24,712 nt of DNA from a virus. Location: IMG/VR virus record IMGVR_UViG_3300032069_000425, positions 1 to 24,712 of that record; one strand, written 5' to 3'. A program made the translations under genes and the position numbers. Below, piece by piece: positions 1,075-7,209 of the stretch. Under the pieces are notes generated by a model. That model did no database searches, was not told the origin of the DNA, and saw only the letters and a list, made by a program, of their open reading frames with translations. Each line of letters starts with the position of its first letter. Position 1 is the stretch's first letter.

Positions 1075-1485
1075 TCAGATCATCCCCAGTTCCGTGCGCT
1101 GGTCGGCCCACATTACCGGCAACTGTTTCGTCAGCTTCGTCAGCGACAACCCACTCGGCTCGTTGCCTATCAGTACGGCTTCGATGATGTCGGGCGCAAG
1201 AAGCGTCAGCCGTAGCAACCTGGCGGCGAATGAGACGTCCAGTCCTATCTCCCGCGCGAGGTCCGAGACCGAATCGAACTTACCCTCGTCAAGAAGCTTC
1301 TGCCACCTGTGCGCCCGGGCAATGGCTATGACGAGTGCTTCCTGATGAGAAGGACGCATGGGGCTTTCGGCCGCGAACGCCTGCGGCAGAATCACCTCCT
1401 TTCTGCCCCCTCGCTTCTTCAATGTGAGCGGCACGTTGACTACTATGCCGTTGTCATCATTCTGTAATGTGACTCCAGTCATCAT
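1075..1485 (-). CDS. ParB/KorB-like HTH protein linked to serine recombinase
   Basis: A 136-aa protein whose start overlaps the recombinase stop in ATGATGA, so the two are translationally coupled. AAAGGAG lies about nine bases upstream of the first ATG. An N-terminal stretch rich in Lys/Arg/Gly (KKRGGRK, residues ~24-30) precedes a helical region, residues ~45-120. That region contains a ParB/KorB-type helix-turn-helix signature (SVSDLAREIGLDVSFAARLL). From memory, the family is a small conserved protein found right after large serine recombinases together with a DUF2924 gene in many bacteria and prophages. Its biochemical role is not established as far as I know. DNA binding, perhaps helping or steering the recombinase, is inference. 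It is the last gene of the leftward operon. Confidence 0.8.
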   Translation of the reverse strand: MMTGVTLQNDDNGIVVNVPLTLKKRGGRKEVILPQAFAAESPMRPSHQEALVIAIARAHRWQKLLDEGKFDSVSDLAREIGLDVSFAARLLRLTLLAPDIIEAVLIGNEPSGLSLTKLTKQLPVMWADQRTELGMI

Positions 1486-3056
1486 TCGACGTGACTCCTT
1501 TCGTGTTGGTCCGCCGTGTTCCGTACCTCGCTGACCAGCGAGTGCAATCCGTTGCTGCGGATTCTGATGTTCATGCCGTCGACGTTTACGGTGACGCGCT
1601 CGACGAGCAACTGGACTATGCGCGACTGCTCCAGGGGGAAGAGTTCATCCCAGATCGGGTCGAGCCTGCGCAGAGATTCCGCGACGTCGCGCTCGCTTAC
1701 AAGCCGTGCCTGCATTCCATGTATCTCTTCGTCTATGTCTCGGAACCTGCGTTGAGTATCAACGAACTCCTCGTTGGTCCGGCGTATCTCGTCGGTCGTC
1801 TCGCTGTCCGATGCGCCGGAGTCCAACAGCCGGGATGCGGCCTGCTTGAGTTCGGCAAGCCGTGCTTCCAGTTCTGTTCTCTCTGAACGCAGTCGCTCAA
1901 GCTCTTCGGCCTCAAGCCCCCGAGTCGCCTGATAGGTCTGGGCTATCATCTCAGGCGACTTGAACATCGCGCGAAGCTGTTGGATGACGGCTCCTTCCAT
2001 GTCTCCGGCGGGGACCGACTTGACTGGGCAGTTGCTGTGCCCCGTCTTGGACGCCCTGCCGCATGTGTAGTAGCGGTAGTTTCTGTGGGCCGTTCCGGTG
2101 GACACGGGGCTCATTGCCGTGTCGCACGCTCCGCATCGGATGAGGCCCTTCAGAAGTGCGGGAGCTTTCGCGCGGACGTGCTGAGAGCGATGGCGCTTGT
2201 TATTCTCGATAACCGAATGCGCTCGTTCCCATAGGTCTATGGTGACAATCGCTTCGTGTTCTCCGGGGAAGGTCTTGTCCTTGTGGATCACCTCGCCGAG
2301 GTACGTCCGGTTGTACAGCACGCGGTAGATGTGCGTCTTGTTCCAGGGCTTGCCCTGCCGGAAGACGCCTTTCTTGGTCATCCAGGCTTTGGTGGTCACC
2401 CCCTTCCTGTTGAGTTCCTCCGCAACGGTCAGAGGGGACCCGATCTCCGCGAAGCGTTTGAAAATGTGGCGCACCAACTTCGCCTCTTCGGGGTTCACGA
2501 CCAGGCGCGTCTTTTCGGGGTCCACATCGTAGCCGAGCGGTGGTGTGCCGCCAGTGAACTTGCCCTTGCGTTTCGCCGCCGCGACCTTATCGCGGATACG
2601 TTCCCCGATGATCTCGCGCTCGAACTGAGCGAAACTCAGCAATATATTGAGCGTGAGCCTGCCCATGGATGTCGTCGTGGAAAACTGCTGCGTTACGCTA
2701 ACAAACGACACGCCGTTCCGGTCGAACGCCTCGATGATCTTGGCGAAGTCCAAGAGCGACCGGGAGAGTCGGTCCACCTTGTAGACGACCACGCAATCGA
2801 CTCGGTGGTTCTCCACATCGTCCAACAGTCGTTCAAGTGCCGGACGATCCATCGTTCCGCCCGAGAAGCCGCCGTCGTCGTAGCGCTGCGGCATGACGGC
2901 CCAACCTTCGTGCCGCTGGCTTATGATGAACGCTTCGGCGGCTTCGCGTTGGGCGTCCAGGCTGTTGAACTCCTGCTCCAAACCCTCCTCGGTGGATTTC
3001 CTGGTGTAGATTGCACAACGAACGCGCGGGGTGGTCGTGCTCTGTGTCTTGGTCAT
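1482..3056 (-). CDS. large serine recombinase (phage integrase)
   Basis: Site-specific DNA recombinase that would integrate and excise the element. The N-terminal resolvase domain (~residues 10-155) has the catalytic Ser in YTRKSTEEG and the conserved DRLSRSLLDFA arginines. The recombinase domain (PF07508 type, ~170-290) contains the GKPWNKTHIYRVLYNRTYLG signature. A zinc ribbon follows (~300-365) with CGAC and a later pair of cysteines, then a coiled coil rich in Glu/Leu/Arg (~385-465), usual for large serine integrases. About 524 aa is a normal length. I chose ATG 3056 because it overlaps the DUF2924 stop as ATGA; an in-frame GTG at 3065 is the alternative. It is intact, with no frameshift or missing catalytic residue seen. 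It lies in a three-gene module with DUF2924 upstream and a ParB-like protein downstream. Confidence 0.95.
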   Translation of the reverse strand: MTKTQSTTTPRVRCAIYTRKSTEEGLEQEFNSLDAQREAAEAFIISQRHEGWAVMPQRYDDGGFSGGTMDRPALERLLDDVENHRVDCVVVYKVDRLSRSLLDFAKIIEAFDRNGVSFVSVTQQFSTTTSMGRLTLNILLSFAQFEREIIGERIRDKVAAAKRKGKFTGGTPPLGYDVDPEKTRLVVNPEEAKLVRHIFKRFAEIGSPLTVAEELNRKGVTTKAWMTKKGVFRQGKPWNKTHIYRVLYNRTYLGEVIHKDKTFPGEHEAIVTIDLWERAHSVIENNKRHRSQHVRAKAPALLKGLIRCGACDTAMSPVSTGTAHRNYRYYTCGRASKTGHSNCPVKSVPAGDMEGAVIQQLRAMFKSPEMIAQTYQATRGLEAEELERLRSERTELEARLAELKQAASRLLDSGASDSETTDEIRRTNEEFVDTQRRFRDIDEEIHGMQARLVSERDVAESLRRLDPIWDELFPLEQSRIVQLLVERVTVNVDGMNIRIRSNGLHSLVSEVRNTADQHERSHVE

Positions 3057-3553
3057 TGGCCGCACCTGCCGTTGTTCTTGTGCGATTCCTTCAGGCCGAA
3101 GAAGGCCCGGCCGTTCCAGTGAGTGCCGGTAATCGCTGTGGCGATGGCGGTGAGTGACTTGTAGCGTCGTCCGTCATACTCGAACCCGCCGTAAACCACG
3201 GTCACCTCATACGTTCTGCCGTTCCACTCACGCACCAGCCGCGTGCCCGCGACCGGCACACCGACCTTGCGCTTCCTCTCGGTGCGCCTTCCATCGAGGC
3301 TACCTCCGTTTTCGTCGAAGCCTTGGGCATCAAGGATTTCATCCATGGTCGTGCGCGCCCTGTCGGAAAGGCCACCGTAGGCTATCTCCTGGATGCGGTA
3401 GGCCAGGCGCTTGATGAGATACGGCCGGTTGCATGCCATTGGCTCCTTGCCGTGGAGCGTTCGCCAGAGTTGGCAAAGTTCCTCGTGGCTCAGGCCGTCG
3501 AGATCCGCGATCTGCTTCAAGACCGAATCGCCGGTTCTGGTACTTGTCGTCAT
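3053..3553 (-). CDS. DUF2924 family protein
   Basis: A 166-aa protein matching DUF2924 by its typical blocks: an N-terminal LCQLWRTLHGKEP segment, then RPYLIKRLAYRIQEIAYGGLS (residues ~43-63), and a C-terminal GTRLVREWNGRTYEVTVVYG, RRYKSLTAIATAITGTHWNG and FFGLK. From memory, these genes almost always sit directly before large serine recombinases; their function is unknown and DNA binding is often suspected. A GGGGGT sequence precedes ATG 3553, and the stop overlaps the recombinase start by four bases. The C-terminal block resembles a small DNA-binding fold used in other recombination-linked proteins, but I cannot show that from the sequence. Confidence 0.9.
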   Translation of the reverse strand: MTTSTRTGDSVLKQIADLDGLSHEELCQLWRTLHGKEPMACNRPYLIKRLAYRIQEIAYGGLSDRARTTMDEILDAQGFDENGGSLDGRRTERKRKVGVPVAGTRLVREWNGRTYEVTVVYGGFEYDGRRYKSLTAIATAITGTHWNGRAFFGLKESHKNNGRCGQ

Positions 3554-3586: not shown

Positions 3587-3994
3587 CTACCGCTTGCCTC
3601 TCGCGACAGTGCGCATCTGCGCCAGGGTCTTGCCTCTGGTCATCTGAACGTGCGGTCGGTCCCTGAACTTCTTCCAGTCACCGCCCCACTCCAGGCCGCA
3701 CTGTCTGGCGATACGTCCGAACGCATCCCACGGACCATTCCATGTGACCTTGCCGTCGATTATGAAGGCGTAGTCGGCGGCGAGGCCGAAGTTATGCCAA
3801 CTGTACCCGCCGCGCGCGTTGGTCACAACGCTTCCGGGTGCGGTACGGCCCTTGGCATACAATCCGTTCTGGCTTTCGATGGACCTGTAGCCCCAGGTCA
3901 GAACGACCTTGATGCCGTGGTCGGCAAGCTTCTTCTCGAAGAGGTTGAGCCTCTTGGCGAACTCCGGGTCAAGCCCGACCCTTGATGCGCTCAT
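3587..3994 (-). CDS. M15 family peptidase, phage endolysin type
   Basis: A 135-aa zinc peptidase of the L-alanyl-D-glutamate or D-Ala-D-Ala endopeptidase group (VanY/CwlK/T5 endolysin-like), expected to cut peptidoglycan cross-links or stems. Visible signatures are GYRSIESQNGLYAKGR, with the Arg/Ser/Gln block that shapes the active site, then SWHNFGLAADYAF (zinc-binding H and D in HxxxxxxD) and RPHVQM (third zinc-binding His). I chose ATG 3994 rather than the ATG at 4030 because GGAGAG lies just before it and it overlaps the upstream gene as ATGA. There is no signal peptide or membrane segment. The protein is a bare catalytic domain, so in a phage it would need a holin for export; none is visible here. 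Its place in the integrase operon, not in a late lysis cassette, is unusual. Confidence 0.88.
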   Translation of the reverse strand: MSASRVGLDPEFAKRLNLFEKKLADHGIKVVLTWGYRSIESQNGLYAKGRTAPGSVVTNARGGYSWHNFGLAADYAFIIDGKVTWNGPWDAFGRIARQCGLEWGGDWKKFRDRPHVQMTRGKTLAQMRTVARGKR

Positions 3995-4203
3995 CGGCTC
4001 TCTCCATTCGGAAGCGGTTTGTTGGTGCAATGAACGCTCTTTTCGACGAAAACATCAAGTCCTGGTTCGGAGAAAGAGCGGTCTTTCCTGATCCGGTTCA
4101 TCTCACGTTTCCTCCCGCGTAGTATTCCGGCGGCCAGAATCCCCGCCACCTCGATCATTCGTTCGTCGAATGTCAGCCAGTCAAGTGCTGTATTCACGTT
4201 CAT
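3991..4203 (-). CDS. small protein of unknown function
   Basis: A 70-aa protein, first gene of the leftward operon. ATG 4203 is chosen because AAAGGAGT lies seven bases upstream. The stop overlaps the peptidase start. The N-terminal half is helical with LTFDERMIEVAGILAAGILR, and the second half is charged. The hydrophobic patch is too short for a membrane span, so this is not an obvious holin. From memory, short proteins with an 'AAILAxGILRLR'-type helix occur near recombinase modules in other bacteria, with no known function. A small DNA-binding or excision factor is possible but unsupported. Confidence 0.65.
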   Translation of the reverse strand: MNVNTALDWLTFDERMIEVAGILAAGILRGRKREMNRIRKDRSFSEPGLDVFVEKSVHCTNKPLPNGESR

Positions 4204-4403: not shown

Positions 4404-4432
4404 TTGACAATGTCTACGGACAGGCTTATAAT
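4404..4432 (+). promoter_or_regulatory. consensus sigma-70 promoter of the repressor operon
   Basis: TTGACA (4404-4409) and TATAAT (4427-4432) both match the consensus exactly and are 17 bases apart. Transcription should start near 4439-4440, giving a leader of about 30 bases before the XRE gene. Such a perfect promoter implies strong repression; the flanking inverted repeat is the obvious operator. Confidence 0.88.
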
Positions 4433-4448
4433 GACTGTAGACATTGTC
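4406..4448. promoter_or_regulatory. paired operators bracketing the repressor promoter
   Basis: GACAATGTCTAC (4406-4417) and GTAGACATTGTC (4437-4448) are perfect 12-bp inverted repeats. Each contains a near-palindrome of the form GACA-N-TGTC, so each arm could itself be a repressor dimer site. One overlaps the -35 box and the other covers the start point. Binding at either would block the promoter, so autoregulation by the XRE protein is the likely role (inference). Confidence 0.7.
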
Positions 4449-4470: not shown

Positions 4471-4824
4471 ATGGGTTTTGGAAAAAGGTTCCGACAGCTC
4501 AGACTAGACCGGAACATGAGCGTTCGAGAGGTGGCGTCGAAGGCGGGGATGGACTTTACGCTGTTGTCCAAAATGGAGCTTGAGATGAGGCCACCGCCCG
4601 AGATTCATTTCATTTTCGCGCTAGTCGATGCCCTAGAGATCGAGGACGCAAAGAAGCTGGAGGAGATAATGGAGGAATTGGTGACTCTTGCCACCGAGTC
4701 TCACGAAAGCGCGGGTCAGAGGCTTACAGAGGAGCAGCTTCAGAAGTTCAGGTGCTCGGAGTCTGCCAGGGTATTCATGCGCTTGAAGCCTAAGGGCAAG
4801 CGCGAAGGAGGGAAGTCCAAGTGA
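4471..4824 (+). CDS. XRE-family transcriptional repressor
   Basis: A 117-aa protein with an N-terminal helix-turn-helix of the Cro/CI-XRE type (residues ~5-60): FGKRFRQLRLDRNMSVREVA, then KAGMDFTLLSKMELEMRPPP, then a hydrophobic helix. The C-terminal part is charged and ends in a Lys/Arg-rich tail. It lacks the LexA-like self-cleaving domain, consistent with inactivation by the metallopeptidase encoded next. ATG 4471 has GGAAGGTG upstream. It is transcribed from the consensus promoter at 4404-4432 and probably binds the GACA-N-TGTC sites there. It overlaps the next gene as GTGA. This XRE plus ImmA arrangement matches the ImmR/ImmA immunity pair of ICEBs1 and many prophages. Confidence 0.88.
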   Translation: MGFGKRFRQLRLDRNMSVREVASKAGMDFTLLSKMELEMRPPPEIHFIFALVDALEIEDAKKLEEIMEELVTLATESHESAGQRLTEEQLQKFRCSESARVFMRLKPKGKREGGKSK

Positions 4825-5717: not shown

Positions 5718-5900
5718 TTGGACGAAAGTAAAAAACAGACGACCTGCGAGCTCACTCGCGATGAGATGGCAGTGATTGCGAAGATCAGGGAAGCCGAGCA
5801 CGGCACTGTAGAGGTGCAAGTCAAGAAAAGCGCGATAGTCAACATATCTATGCGCAGGACGTTCCTGCCTCCGAGCCTGGAGGAAACTCGGCAGAATTAG
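5718..5900 (+). CDS. small DUF2292/YezD-like protein
   Basis: A 60-aa protein starting at TTG 5718, chosen because GGGAGG lies eight bases upstream and no other start fits. The core VIAKIREAEHGTVEVQVKKS resembles DUF2292 (YezD), whose pattern is a helix followed by FGxVxIxIxDGxVVxI and a basic end. Here the DG turn is replaced by KKSAI. The function of the family is not known to me. It lies 12 bases after the peptidase gene and probably shares its transcript, followed by a structured leader. It is short, but the ribosome site, conserved-looking core and operon position support it. Confidence 0.6.
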   Translation: MDESKKQTTCELTRDEMAVIAKIREAEHGTVEVQVKKSAIVNISMRRTFLPPSLEETRQN

Positions 5901-5904
5901 CGTG

Positions 5905-6054
5905 ACAACCAGGTAACCACTCGTCGAAGGGAAGAACCCAGGCGAGCCGTCAAAAGGCATTCCAGAGTCCACGTATCTGACCAGAGGGAAGAACCCTCGG
6001 CAGCCCGACAAGAGGACTCCAGGGAATGTGTTTTGAGGGCTCGCCTCTTTTTTT
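5905..6054 (+). promoter_or_regulatory. structured leader RNA with tandem GGGAAGAACCC hairpins
   Basis: Two related segments, 5926-5967 and 5983-6023, each start with the hairpin GGG-AAGAA-CCC (5929-5939; 5986-5996, stem extended to GAGGG/CCCTC in the second). They continue with similar blocks (GGC-AGCC, CAA-AGG, TCCAG). The first hairpin is enclosed by CTCG/CGAG (5920-5923 with 5943-5946). AGGCGAGCC (5940-5948) is exactly complementary to GGCTCGCCT (6038-6046), which directly precedes seven Ts. The 5' domain can therefore pair either within itself or with the terminator arm. This looks like an attenuator or tandem aptamer. I do not recognise it as a known riboswitch class. Confidence 0.55.
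6035..6054 (+). terminator. U-tract terminator of the tandem-hairpin leader
   Basis: GAGG (6035-6038) and CCTC (6044-6047) make a short stem followed by T7 (6048-6054). The stronger alternative is the 9-bp pairing of 6038-6046 with 5940-5948, which also ends one base before the T-tract. It lies 10 bases upstream of the next start codon, a typical place for transcription attenuation. Confidence 0.55.
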
Positions 6055-6064
6055 GGAGCGCGGG

Positions 6065-6421
6065 ATGACGGTCGGGCAGACACTCAAGTTGCAGACAAAC
6101 AAGTCAGAAAGAATGATTACAGATGCAGAGTCCACGCTCATCCGCCTTATCCAGGAGATGCGCTTCGGCCGTATAGAGAATTTCCGGTTGGTCGATGGTG
6201 AGCCGATACTAGGTTCCGAGACGGAACTATGCACCGAGTACAAGCTCTCCGGTGTCGAGCAGCCCAGGGAGGTGATAACTGATAGAGAATTCCTGAACAA
6301 GCCGCAGGTCCGCACCATGTTCGAGCAATTTGAGCAGGTGCAGCACGGCACCGTAGATTATCTGGATGTGCGCGATGGTCTACCGTTCAAGTTGATGGTG
6401 AGGCACAGAGCGCTCAGCTAG
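6065..6421 (+). CDS. two-unit DUF2292/YezD-like protein, function unknown
   Basis: A 118-aa protein. ATG 6065 is chosen for the GGAG six bases upstream; the in-frame ATG at 6026 would put the start inside the terminator hairpin. Two segments resemble the YezD/DUF2292 core: LIRLIQEMRFGRIENFRLVD (followed by GEPIL, residues ~33-57) and FEQVQHGTVDYLDVRDGLPF (~91-110). Each has a helix, a small-residue turn (FGRI/HGTV), a strand, a DG turn and another strand. The protein therefore looks like a duplicated version of the fold of the 60-aa protein just upstream. No catalytic residues are evident. A leader RNA that can terminate transcription precedes it. Function is unknown; RNA or nucleic-acid binding is only a guess. 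Confidence 0.65.
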   Translation: MTVGQTLKLQTNKSERMITDAESTLIRLIQEMRFGRIENFRLVDGEPILGSETELCTEYKLSGVEQPREVITDREFLNKPQVRTMFEQFEQVQHGTVDYLDVRDGLPFKLMVRHRALS

Positions 6422-6467
6422 ACCCAGAACAACCTAATACCAATTACACCGAGAATGACTGACCGCT

Positions 6468-6549
6468 AGGCGGAGGTCGTTGAGGGTGTCGCCTTGACAG
6501 GGATGATTCCAACCATCCCCGGCGATATCGCAACGCCTCCGCCTTTTTT
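6468..6549 (+). terminator. terminator with long GC stem before the sigma gene
   Basis: AGGCGGAGG (6468-6476) pairs perfectly with CCTCCGCCT (6536-6544), which runs into T6 (6544-6549). The enclosed part folds further: TCGCC pairs with GGCGA around a GGGATG/CATCCC hairpin (about 6499-6518). It looks like an intrinsic terminator between the two-unit DUF2292-like gene and the sigma factor gene, but its 5' arm can also pair elsewhere (next entry). Confidence 0.6.
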
Positions 6550-6598
6550 CGTGTCCGGCGTGTGTGTTCAGGGTGACACCCTCAACGACCTTCTCCGC
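6470..6598. repeat. 16-bp perfect inverted repeat interlocked with the terminator
   Basis: GGTCGTTGAGGGTGTC (6475-6490) is the exact reverse complement of 6575-6590. The match extends outward after a three-base bulge: GCGGAG 6470-6475 with CTCCGC 6593-6598. Because the terminator arms lie at 6468-6476 and 6536-6544, the order is A-B-A'-B': a pseudoknot or two exclusive folds. CTCCGC also lies seven bases before the GGAGG ribosome site of the sigma gene. Alternatively, the 129-bp block with ~20-bp terminal inverted repeats could be a miniature mobile element. The repeat is certain; the role is inference. Confidence 0.75.
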
Positions 6599-6615
6599 GG
6601 TCGAGGAGGAACAAG

Positions 6616-7209
6616 ATGGGATCACCGGACACTGATGCGAACTACGACCGATTTGCCAGGGGGCATGTCAGAGGCAGAGTTGCCAAACTCGTGAGAACGC
6701 TAGGCTTGCCAGAGAGCGACCGCGACGATCTGGAACAAGAGGTGCTGGTATTTGTCTACCAGCGTCTGCGGCAGTTCAACCCGAGCTGCGGCTCTATCGA
6801 GGCATTCACAAACAAAGTGGTGACCAGCAAGGTATGCAATCTTGTTGACCAGCTGACCGCCAAGAAGAGGGACTTCAGACTGATAGACTTCTCTTTCGAC
6901 GAAACAGTCCGGACTCTGGAGGGAGATTACGTCGACAGGAAAGAGCTGACAGACGCTCAGATTGTGATCCAGAACCGTGGAGACATCGAGAGCTATACAC
7001 GCGACCAGATCGAACGCAAGGTGGACATGGATAGAATCATTGACAAGCTGCCTGCTGAGCTGGCTGACGTCTGCAATGCCTTGAAACGTGGCAATGCCAC
7101 GGATGCGGCCAGGGAATTGGGCATCAGTCGTCGCGAGGTCACTAGGCGAATCAGCAAACTACGCAGCATCTTCGGGCAGTATTGGGCCGAGGCAGACCAC
7201 CCAGAGTGA
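6616..7209 (+). CDS. sigma-70 family (ECF-like) RNA polymerase sigma factor
   Basis: A 197-aa sigma factor. Region 2 (residues ~12-85) shows LGLPESDRDDLEQEVLVFVY and then a polar helix that would contact core polymerase and the -10 element. Region 4 (~140-188) shows LPAELADVCNALKRGNATDA and then REVTRRISKLRSIFG, a helix-turn-helix for -35 recognition. A linker of ~50 aa without region 3 is ECF-like. ATG 6616 has AGGAGG seven bases upstream. Here it probably redirects host polymerase to phage promoters, perhaps those of the replication or late genes. Expression may be limited by the terminator and inverted repeat in its 5' leader. No anti-sigma gene is adjacent. Confidence 0.85.
   Translation: MGSPDTDANYDRFARGHVRGRVAKLVRTLGLPESDRDDLEQEVLVFVYQRLRQFNPSCGSIEAFTNKVVTSKVCNLVDQLTAKKRDFRLIDFSFDETVRTLEGDYVDRKELTDAQIVIQNRGDIESYTRDQIERKVDMDRIIDKLPAELADVCNALKRGNATDAARELGISRREVTRRISKLRSIFGQYWAEADHPE

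Follow-up and report, generated by a model that had tools for sequence, protein, structure and literature searches.

A conserved leader RNA (leader 2, positions 6432–6623) appears, judging from its sequence and those of its relatives, to control the phage sigma-factor gene S in front of which it lies. The window analysed here is the whole 24,712-nt stretch of the virus record IMGVR_UViG_3300032069_000425, in which a further structured leader (leader 1, 5905–6064) lies in front of gene X. The explanation that we favour, with moderate confidence, is that leader 1 is an attenuator private to this phage, and that leader 2 is a conserved switch of S in which one segment exchanges partners under the influence of a trans-acting signal. 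If leader 2 works as its structure implies, it represents a widespread and so far unrecorded family of cis-regulatory RNA, carried by phages of little-studied phyla and acting on a sigma factor. Leader 1 alone is of little importance.

A conserved candidate RNA switch precedes a phage sigma-factor-like gene

A fold scan of the window placed strong structure at 6451–6600 (z about −10.6). This region lies within leader 2, a predicted RNA switch on the + strand (covariance model R1, 83.6 bits), the 5′ part of which forms a receptor domain (6443–6495; covariance model R2, 50 bits). The receptor contains segment A (6454–6466, AAUGAC..CCGC) and segment B (6470–6493, GCGGAGGUCGUUGAGGGUGUCGCC); A is the partner of the 5′ half of B, with which it forms hairpin P0, and B can also pair with the downstream segments C and D. 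Segment C (6521–6543) is followed by a U6 run (6544–6549). Segment D (6575–6598, GACACCCUCAACGACCUUCUCCGC) can pair either with B or with segment E (6603–6618), which holds the Shine-Dalgarno sequence GAGGAGG and the ATG of S. Gene S itself (6616–7209, + strand) is phage sigma-factor-like (phrog_1740, Sigma70_r2). Gene X (6065–6421, + strand), which codes for a weakly DUF2292-like protein of 118 aa, immediately precedes leader 2 and S in almost every relative.

A sequence pattern derived from leader 2 retrieved 102 distinct leaders from viral and genome contigs, with X upstream in 97 of them and S matched in 101. Since the pattern fixes much of B, the invariance of B among these 102 loci is partly by construction; hits made by the covariance model only are free of this, and such hits were also found upstream of S. 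The layout of leader 2 precedes the sigma-like gene in L006, L008, L010 and L012. According to the records, the hosts include three Desulfosarcina species, Planctomycetota, Armatimonadota, Verrucomicrobia and Brocadiaceae. Searched against the genomes of three phyla, model R1 was found in 15 of 392, 13 of 395 and 4 of 291 genomes, and in the last phylum the four genomes with a hit are also those that carry X. Leader 2 is not universal for the sigma family of S, because it is absent from the S relatives L205, L011, L013, L014 and L007. A search of Rfam 15 with leader 1, leader 2 and their relatives gave nothing at or above the gathering threshold, and we found no description of the leader 2 family in the literature searched, which is weak evidence, as the coverage was partial.

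Some individual loci deserve mention. The S relative in L205 (1250–1560; 38% identical) is preceded by a leader without the receptor, with hairpins of its own and a terminator upstream. MAG contigs assigned to five different phyla or classes (L120, L134, L188, L189 and L190) are identical over 230 nt around leader 2, which would reflect either a very mobile element or a binning error. The S frame is short (77–126 aa) behind six leaders (L118, L037, L093, L149, L156 and L179); these are perhaps decayed copies, or frames with mis-set starts.

The partners of segment B change together

We analysed the pairing of B in the leader 2 alignment, whose cells share ancestry and are not independent. Paired cells amounted to 91.4% for A:B, 89.1% for B:C and 90.5% for B:D, the last between partners about 100 nt apart. 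When the partners were slid by 1–3 columns, A:B fell to 23–62% and B:D to 38–54%. For D:E, 58–76% of cells per helix were paired, in a part of the alignment that is noisy, partly from varying lengths. In P0, compared across 51 sequences, both sides had changed in 9 of 13 pairs, and double-change cells numbered 44, compared with a mean of 13.0 in shuffles; one pair (35:43, GC/AU) changed four times or more along the S tree and was broken in none of 40. B and its partners also change together in sequences found without the pattern (L234, L224, L228, L230 and L233). These compensatory changes support the predicted A:B, B:C and B:D helices. Leader 2 thus shows, as riboswitches do, a receptor structure conserved with covariation, and, as far as structure tells, a mutually exclusive platform that touches the Shine-Dalgarno sequence or a terminator.

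Inverted repeats can covary in DNA too, and the conserved block precedes two phage genes, one of which is a sigma factor. It could, therefore, be a DNA dyad, either an operator or a sigma-factor promoter, rather than an RNA element. However, G–U cells are far more frequent than A–C cells in all three helices (87:15 in B:D, 193:47 in B:C and 59:19 in P0), which argues for selection on RNA. In addition, B has three partners, of which one is distant, and a change in B is accompanied by changes in its partners in four of the pattern-free sequences (L234, L224, L228 and L230). We regard a DNA dyad as highly improbable, and rejected it on the counts of G–U and A–C cells.

We also considered that B might be read as the start of a leader peptide (GGAGG-5-GUG GGU GUC GCC). 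As a general reading this was rejected, given that the window has GAG for GUG, with a matching change in D, and that the length of the loop between B and C varies by non-multiples of three.

Predicted switch logic of leader 2

The structure suggests the following mechanism. With B paired to A or to C, D would fold onto the Shine-Dalgarno sequence and start of S, and translation of S would be OFF. Capture of D by B would free the start region, and S would be ON. OFF is probably the default state, as far as calculated energies indicate: the combination of B:C and D:E was lowest in 56 of 58 loci, with B:D higher by a median of 13 kcal/mol. In the window the two states are nearly equal (−72.0 kcal/mol for B:D versus −70.9 kcal/mol for B:C with D:E), and the default-OFF reading is, therefore, weakest here. 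A run of at least five U comes after C in 13 of 99 leaders, this phage included, and in such members formation of B:C may lead to termination of transcription too. The state of P0 would most likely be set by a trans-acting signal, which may be a protein, an RNA or a metabolite.

Leader 2 has in common with riboswitches and protein-responsive leaders that a conserved 5′ receptor is followed by a variable expression platform, which hides or frees the Shine-Dalgarno sequence. It differs from them in that it matches no Rfam 15 family, is carried by phages, and has a receptor common to a sigma-factor gene and one small gene.

The start region of lambda cIII mRNA has two alternative structures. Leader 2 resembles it as a phage gene start region that would switch between two mRNA folds, but has three competing partners for one segment, and a receptor that is reused upstream of a second gene. 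By analogy with cIII, leader 2 might act free of any ligand, as a static or kinetic brake on translation, through slow refolding, temperature or processing by RNase III, for which its long double-stranded arms would be suitable. We consider such a brake possible though rather unlikely: conservation of the 5′ receptor does not depend on what lies downstream of it, and before the second gene the receptor is joined to other platforms. This reuse with different downstream parts suggests that the receptor is recognized by something.

Second copies of the receptor precede another small phage gene

Using model R2, we found second copies of the receptor in 14 of 96 loci, and in most of the prophage-bearing genomes tested. 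Of the 37 second copies examined, 29 precede small proteins with the motif ‘EIAxILAxGxLRxR’, the rest being weak hits or unclear. The second copies often lie in the same prophage as leader 2, on the opposite strand, and their downstream parts differ from that of leader 2. In a short platform class (L235, L101 and L018, read by eye), B pairs directly with the Shine-Dalgarno sequence and start codon. The window has a small-protein gene with the motif ‘EVAGILAAGILR’ (3991–4203, − strand), relatives of which carry the second receptor copy in other prophages. Here the gene has no receptor, the sole site in the R2 scan of the window being that of leader 2 (6443–6495).

The occurrence of one receptor in separate transcripts, which often run in opposite directions, implies a signal that acts in trans, and the second gene makes this signal directly searchable. 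We tentatively propose, while thinking it less than probable, that phages of Planctomycetota, Desulfobacterota, Armatimonadota and other phyla possess a new ligand- or protein-sensing RNA, in which one receptor would switch a sigma factor and a small gene of the same prophage, in opposite directions wherever the second gene has the short platform, and would so form an RNA-based developmental switch.

Leader 1 is a terminator-type hairpin found in a single phage

The initial annotation had read 5905–6064 as a riboswitch-like attenuator with a competing terminator, in the layout of tandem aptamers or protein-binding antitermination sites. The features it described are real but were misread. The AAGAA-loop hairpin is indeed repeated, GGGAAGAACCC being present at 5929–5939 (copy 1, a 3-bp hairpin) and at 5986–5996. 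The two imperfect copies of the motif are 27/44 identical in register and share a 12-nt exact repeat, which was matched in 0 of 300 dinucleotide shuffles. The exact 9-base complementarity between 5940–5948 (AGGCGAGCC) and 6038–6046 and the U7 run at 6048–6054 were also confirmed. The 9-base pairing, however, does not compete with a terminator. It is the foot of a pair of 24-nt arms (5940–5963 and 6023–6046) and, since this foot ends one base before U7, the pairing forms the stem of the predicted terminator; we thus rejected it as an antiterminator. For a tandem aptamer, the aptamer pairing would have to exclude the terminator stem, whereas here it builds the stem.

The arms were found as an inverted repeat (88%, or 21/24, complementary; the best among 120 shuffles was 17) and by folding, and the region folds far beyond chance (z −5.45). 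Folded up to U7, leader 1 is a single rod, with the second copy of the hairpin, the 15-nt GAGGGAAGAACCCTC (5984–5998), near its tip. Like an intrinsic terminator, it has a GC-rich stem followed directly by a U-run. The energy is −65.8 kcal/mol, and −41.7 kcal/mol when long-range pairing is penalised, at a cost of about 24 kcal/mol. The sole local alternative terminator hairpin has 4 bp (GAGG 6035–6038 with CCTC 6044–6047, −5.5 kcal/mol), and no alternative antiterminator was found. Segments complementary to the X start codon (5946–5952 and 6003–6009) reach 7 bp, about the chance level, and were not used.

The Shine-Dalgarno sequence of X, GGAG (6055–6058), begins directly 3′ of U7, so that a regulated stop at U7 would act on X. 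Leader 1 may thus be an attenuator of the intrinsic-terminator type placed just before the ribosome site of X, with expression of X depending on readthrough, and attenuation of X (6065–6421) is plausible on this model. It resembles known attenuators of this type in that a gene is directly preceded by a GC-rich stem and its adjoining U-run, and differs from them in that its arms are unusually long, its tip measures 59 nt and no alternative antiterminator was found. It is also quite conceivable, though we put it at somewhat under an even chance, that leader 1 is a constitutive terminator of the upstream genes without any regulation, X being transcribed by readthrough or from a promoter of its own. 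The foot of the rod one base before U7 and the lack of a comparably stable alternative (−41.7 versus −65.8 kcal/mol) would agree with this. However, the 3′ end of leader 1 touches the Shine-Dalgarno sequence of X, which leaves no room for a promoter between them, and a promoter scan listed none on the + strand between the terminator and X. Moreover, related phages have, in the same place, leaders with a terminator and Shine-Dalgarno pairing.

We compared leader 1 with other viral contigs. Outside this virus, the two-copy motif was found only in two near-identical contigs, besides one unrelated simple tandem repeat. The two contigs have zero base differences in 5905–6064, and their SNPs, tried as a source of covariation evidence, offered none inside the leader. 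The nearest X homologs (L024, L087, L010, L158 and L255–L257), the closest of which (L024 and L087) are 47–51% identical to X, have leaders without the motif, and searches through the upstream 60-aa ORF or the M78 peptidase led to the same two contigs only. Conservation and covariation of both copies in homologs, expected of a tandem aptamer, were thus not found for leader 1. By the refutation test that the initial annotation itself proposed, this counts against the motif, with the reservation that even the closest X homologs share no more than 47–51% identity. By its sequence, the hairpin is private to this phage, and its function is read from one sequence, because it has no independent homolog.

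A 12-nt exact repeat beyond chance and a pentaloop hairpin of boxB-like size (5984–5998) could still be thought to form tandem sites, either aptamers or protein-binding antitermination sites such as nut/boxB-like 15-nt hairpins with A-rich pentaloops. Lambda and P22 nut boxB hairpins and HK022 put RNA are likewise short phage hairpins near early terminators. A lambda-type nut site is marked by a 15-nt hairpin with a GNRA-like purine pentaloop, along with boxA and an arginine-rich N-like protein. The boxB loop of lambda is GAAGA or GAAAA, unlike the AAGAA of leader 1, and leader 2, for its part, would work on a start region. As the copies are just 27/44 identical, pairing with copy 1 builds the terminator stem, and the motif was found in no virus beyond the two near-identical contigs, we think that tandem sites are highly improbable; a tandem aptamer, being without a homolog, was rejected. 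What survives of the initial reading is that the leader is structured and has its terminator immediately ahead of a DUF2292-like gene. The riboswitch-like idea does not fit 5905–6064, but fits the next leader of the operon (6432–6623).

Gene X and its other leaders

Fifteen diverse X leaders, including L120:1068–1226, have a common design at the position of leader 1, which differs from leader 1 itself. In this group (A7), an upstream segment a, a terminator-type hairpin with segment b (CGCCGGACC) and a Shine-Dalgarno region c (GGAGGTCCGGC) are found. The a:b pairing is present in 91.2% of cells, with both sides changed in 5 of 10 pairs, and b:c in 77.4% of cells; in L121, the three segments change together. 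A7 is thus a second structured leader family before X, combining a terminator hairpin with a three-way competition for the Shine-Dalgarno sequence. It supports attenuation or Shine-Dalgarno control of X as a probable theme, and not the leader 1 motif.

X consists of two helix-plus-beta-hairpin repeats (AlphaFold model, mean pLDDT 87.4), and the model had no PDB match at E≤0.001. The 60-aa ORF upstream of leader 1 (5718–5900, + strand), taken from the ORF list, has no Pfam match; part of it resembles the second half of X, and the repeat AGCACGGCACYGTAGA is common to both.

Other features of the window

The virus record opens with a tmRNA gene (tag GTTSYALAA), and a serine recombinase is encoded nearby (191–541, 1482–3065). 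The tmRNA is 84–85% identical, over its full length, to those of two genomes of the phylum of L158 (Armatimonadota), a likeness that suggests Armatimonadota as the host group. Upstream of an HTH gene (4471–4824), a perfect sigma-70 promoter, TTGACA-17-TATAAT, lies on the + strand within 4404–4448. It is overlapped by 12-nt inverted arms (4406–4417 and 4437–4448), which look like a putative operator.
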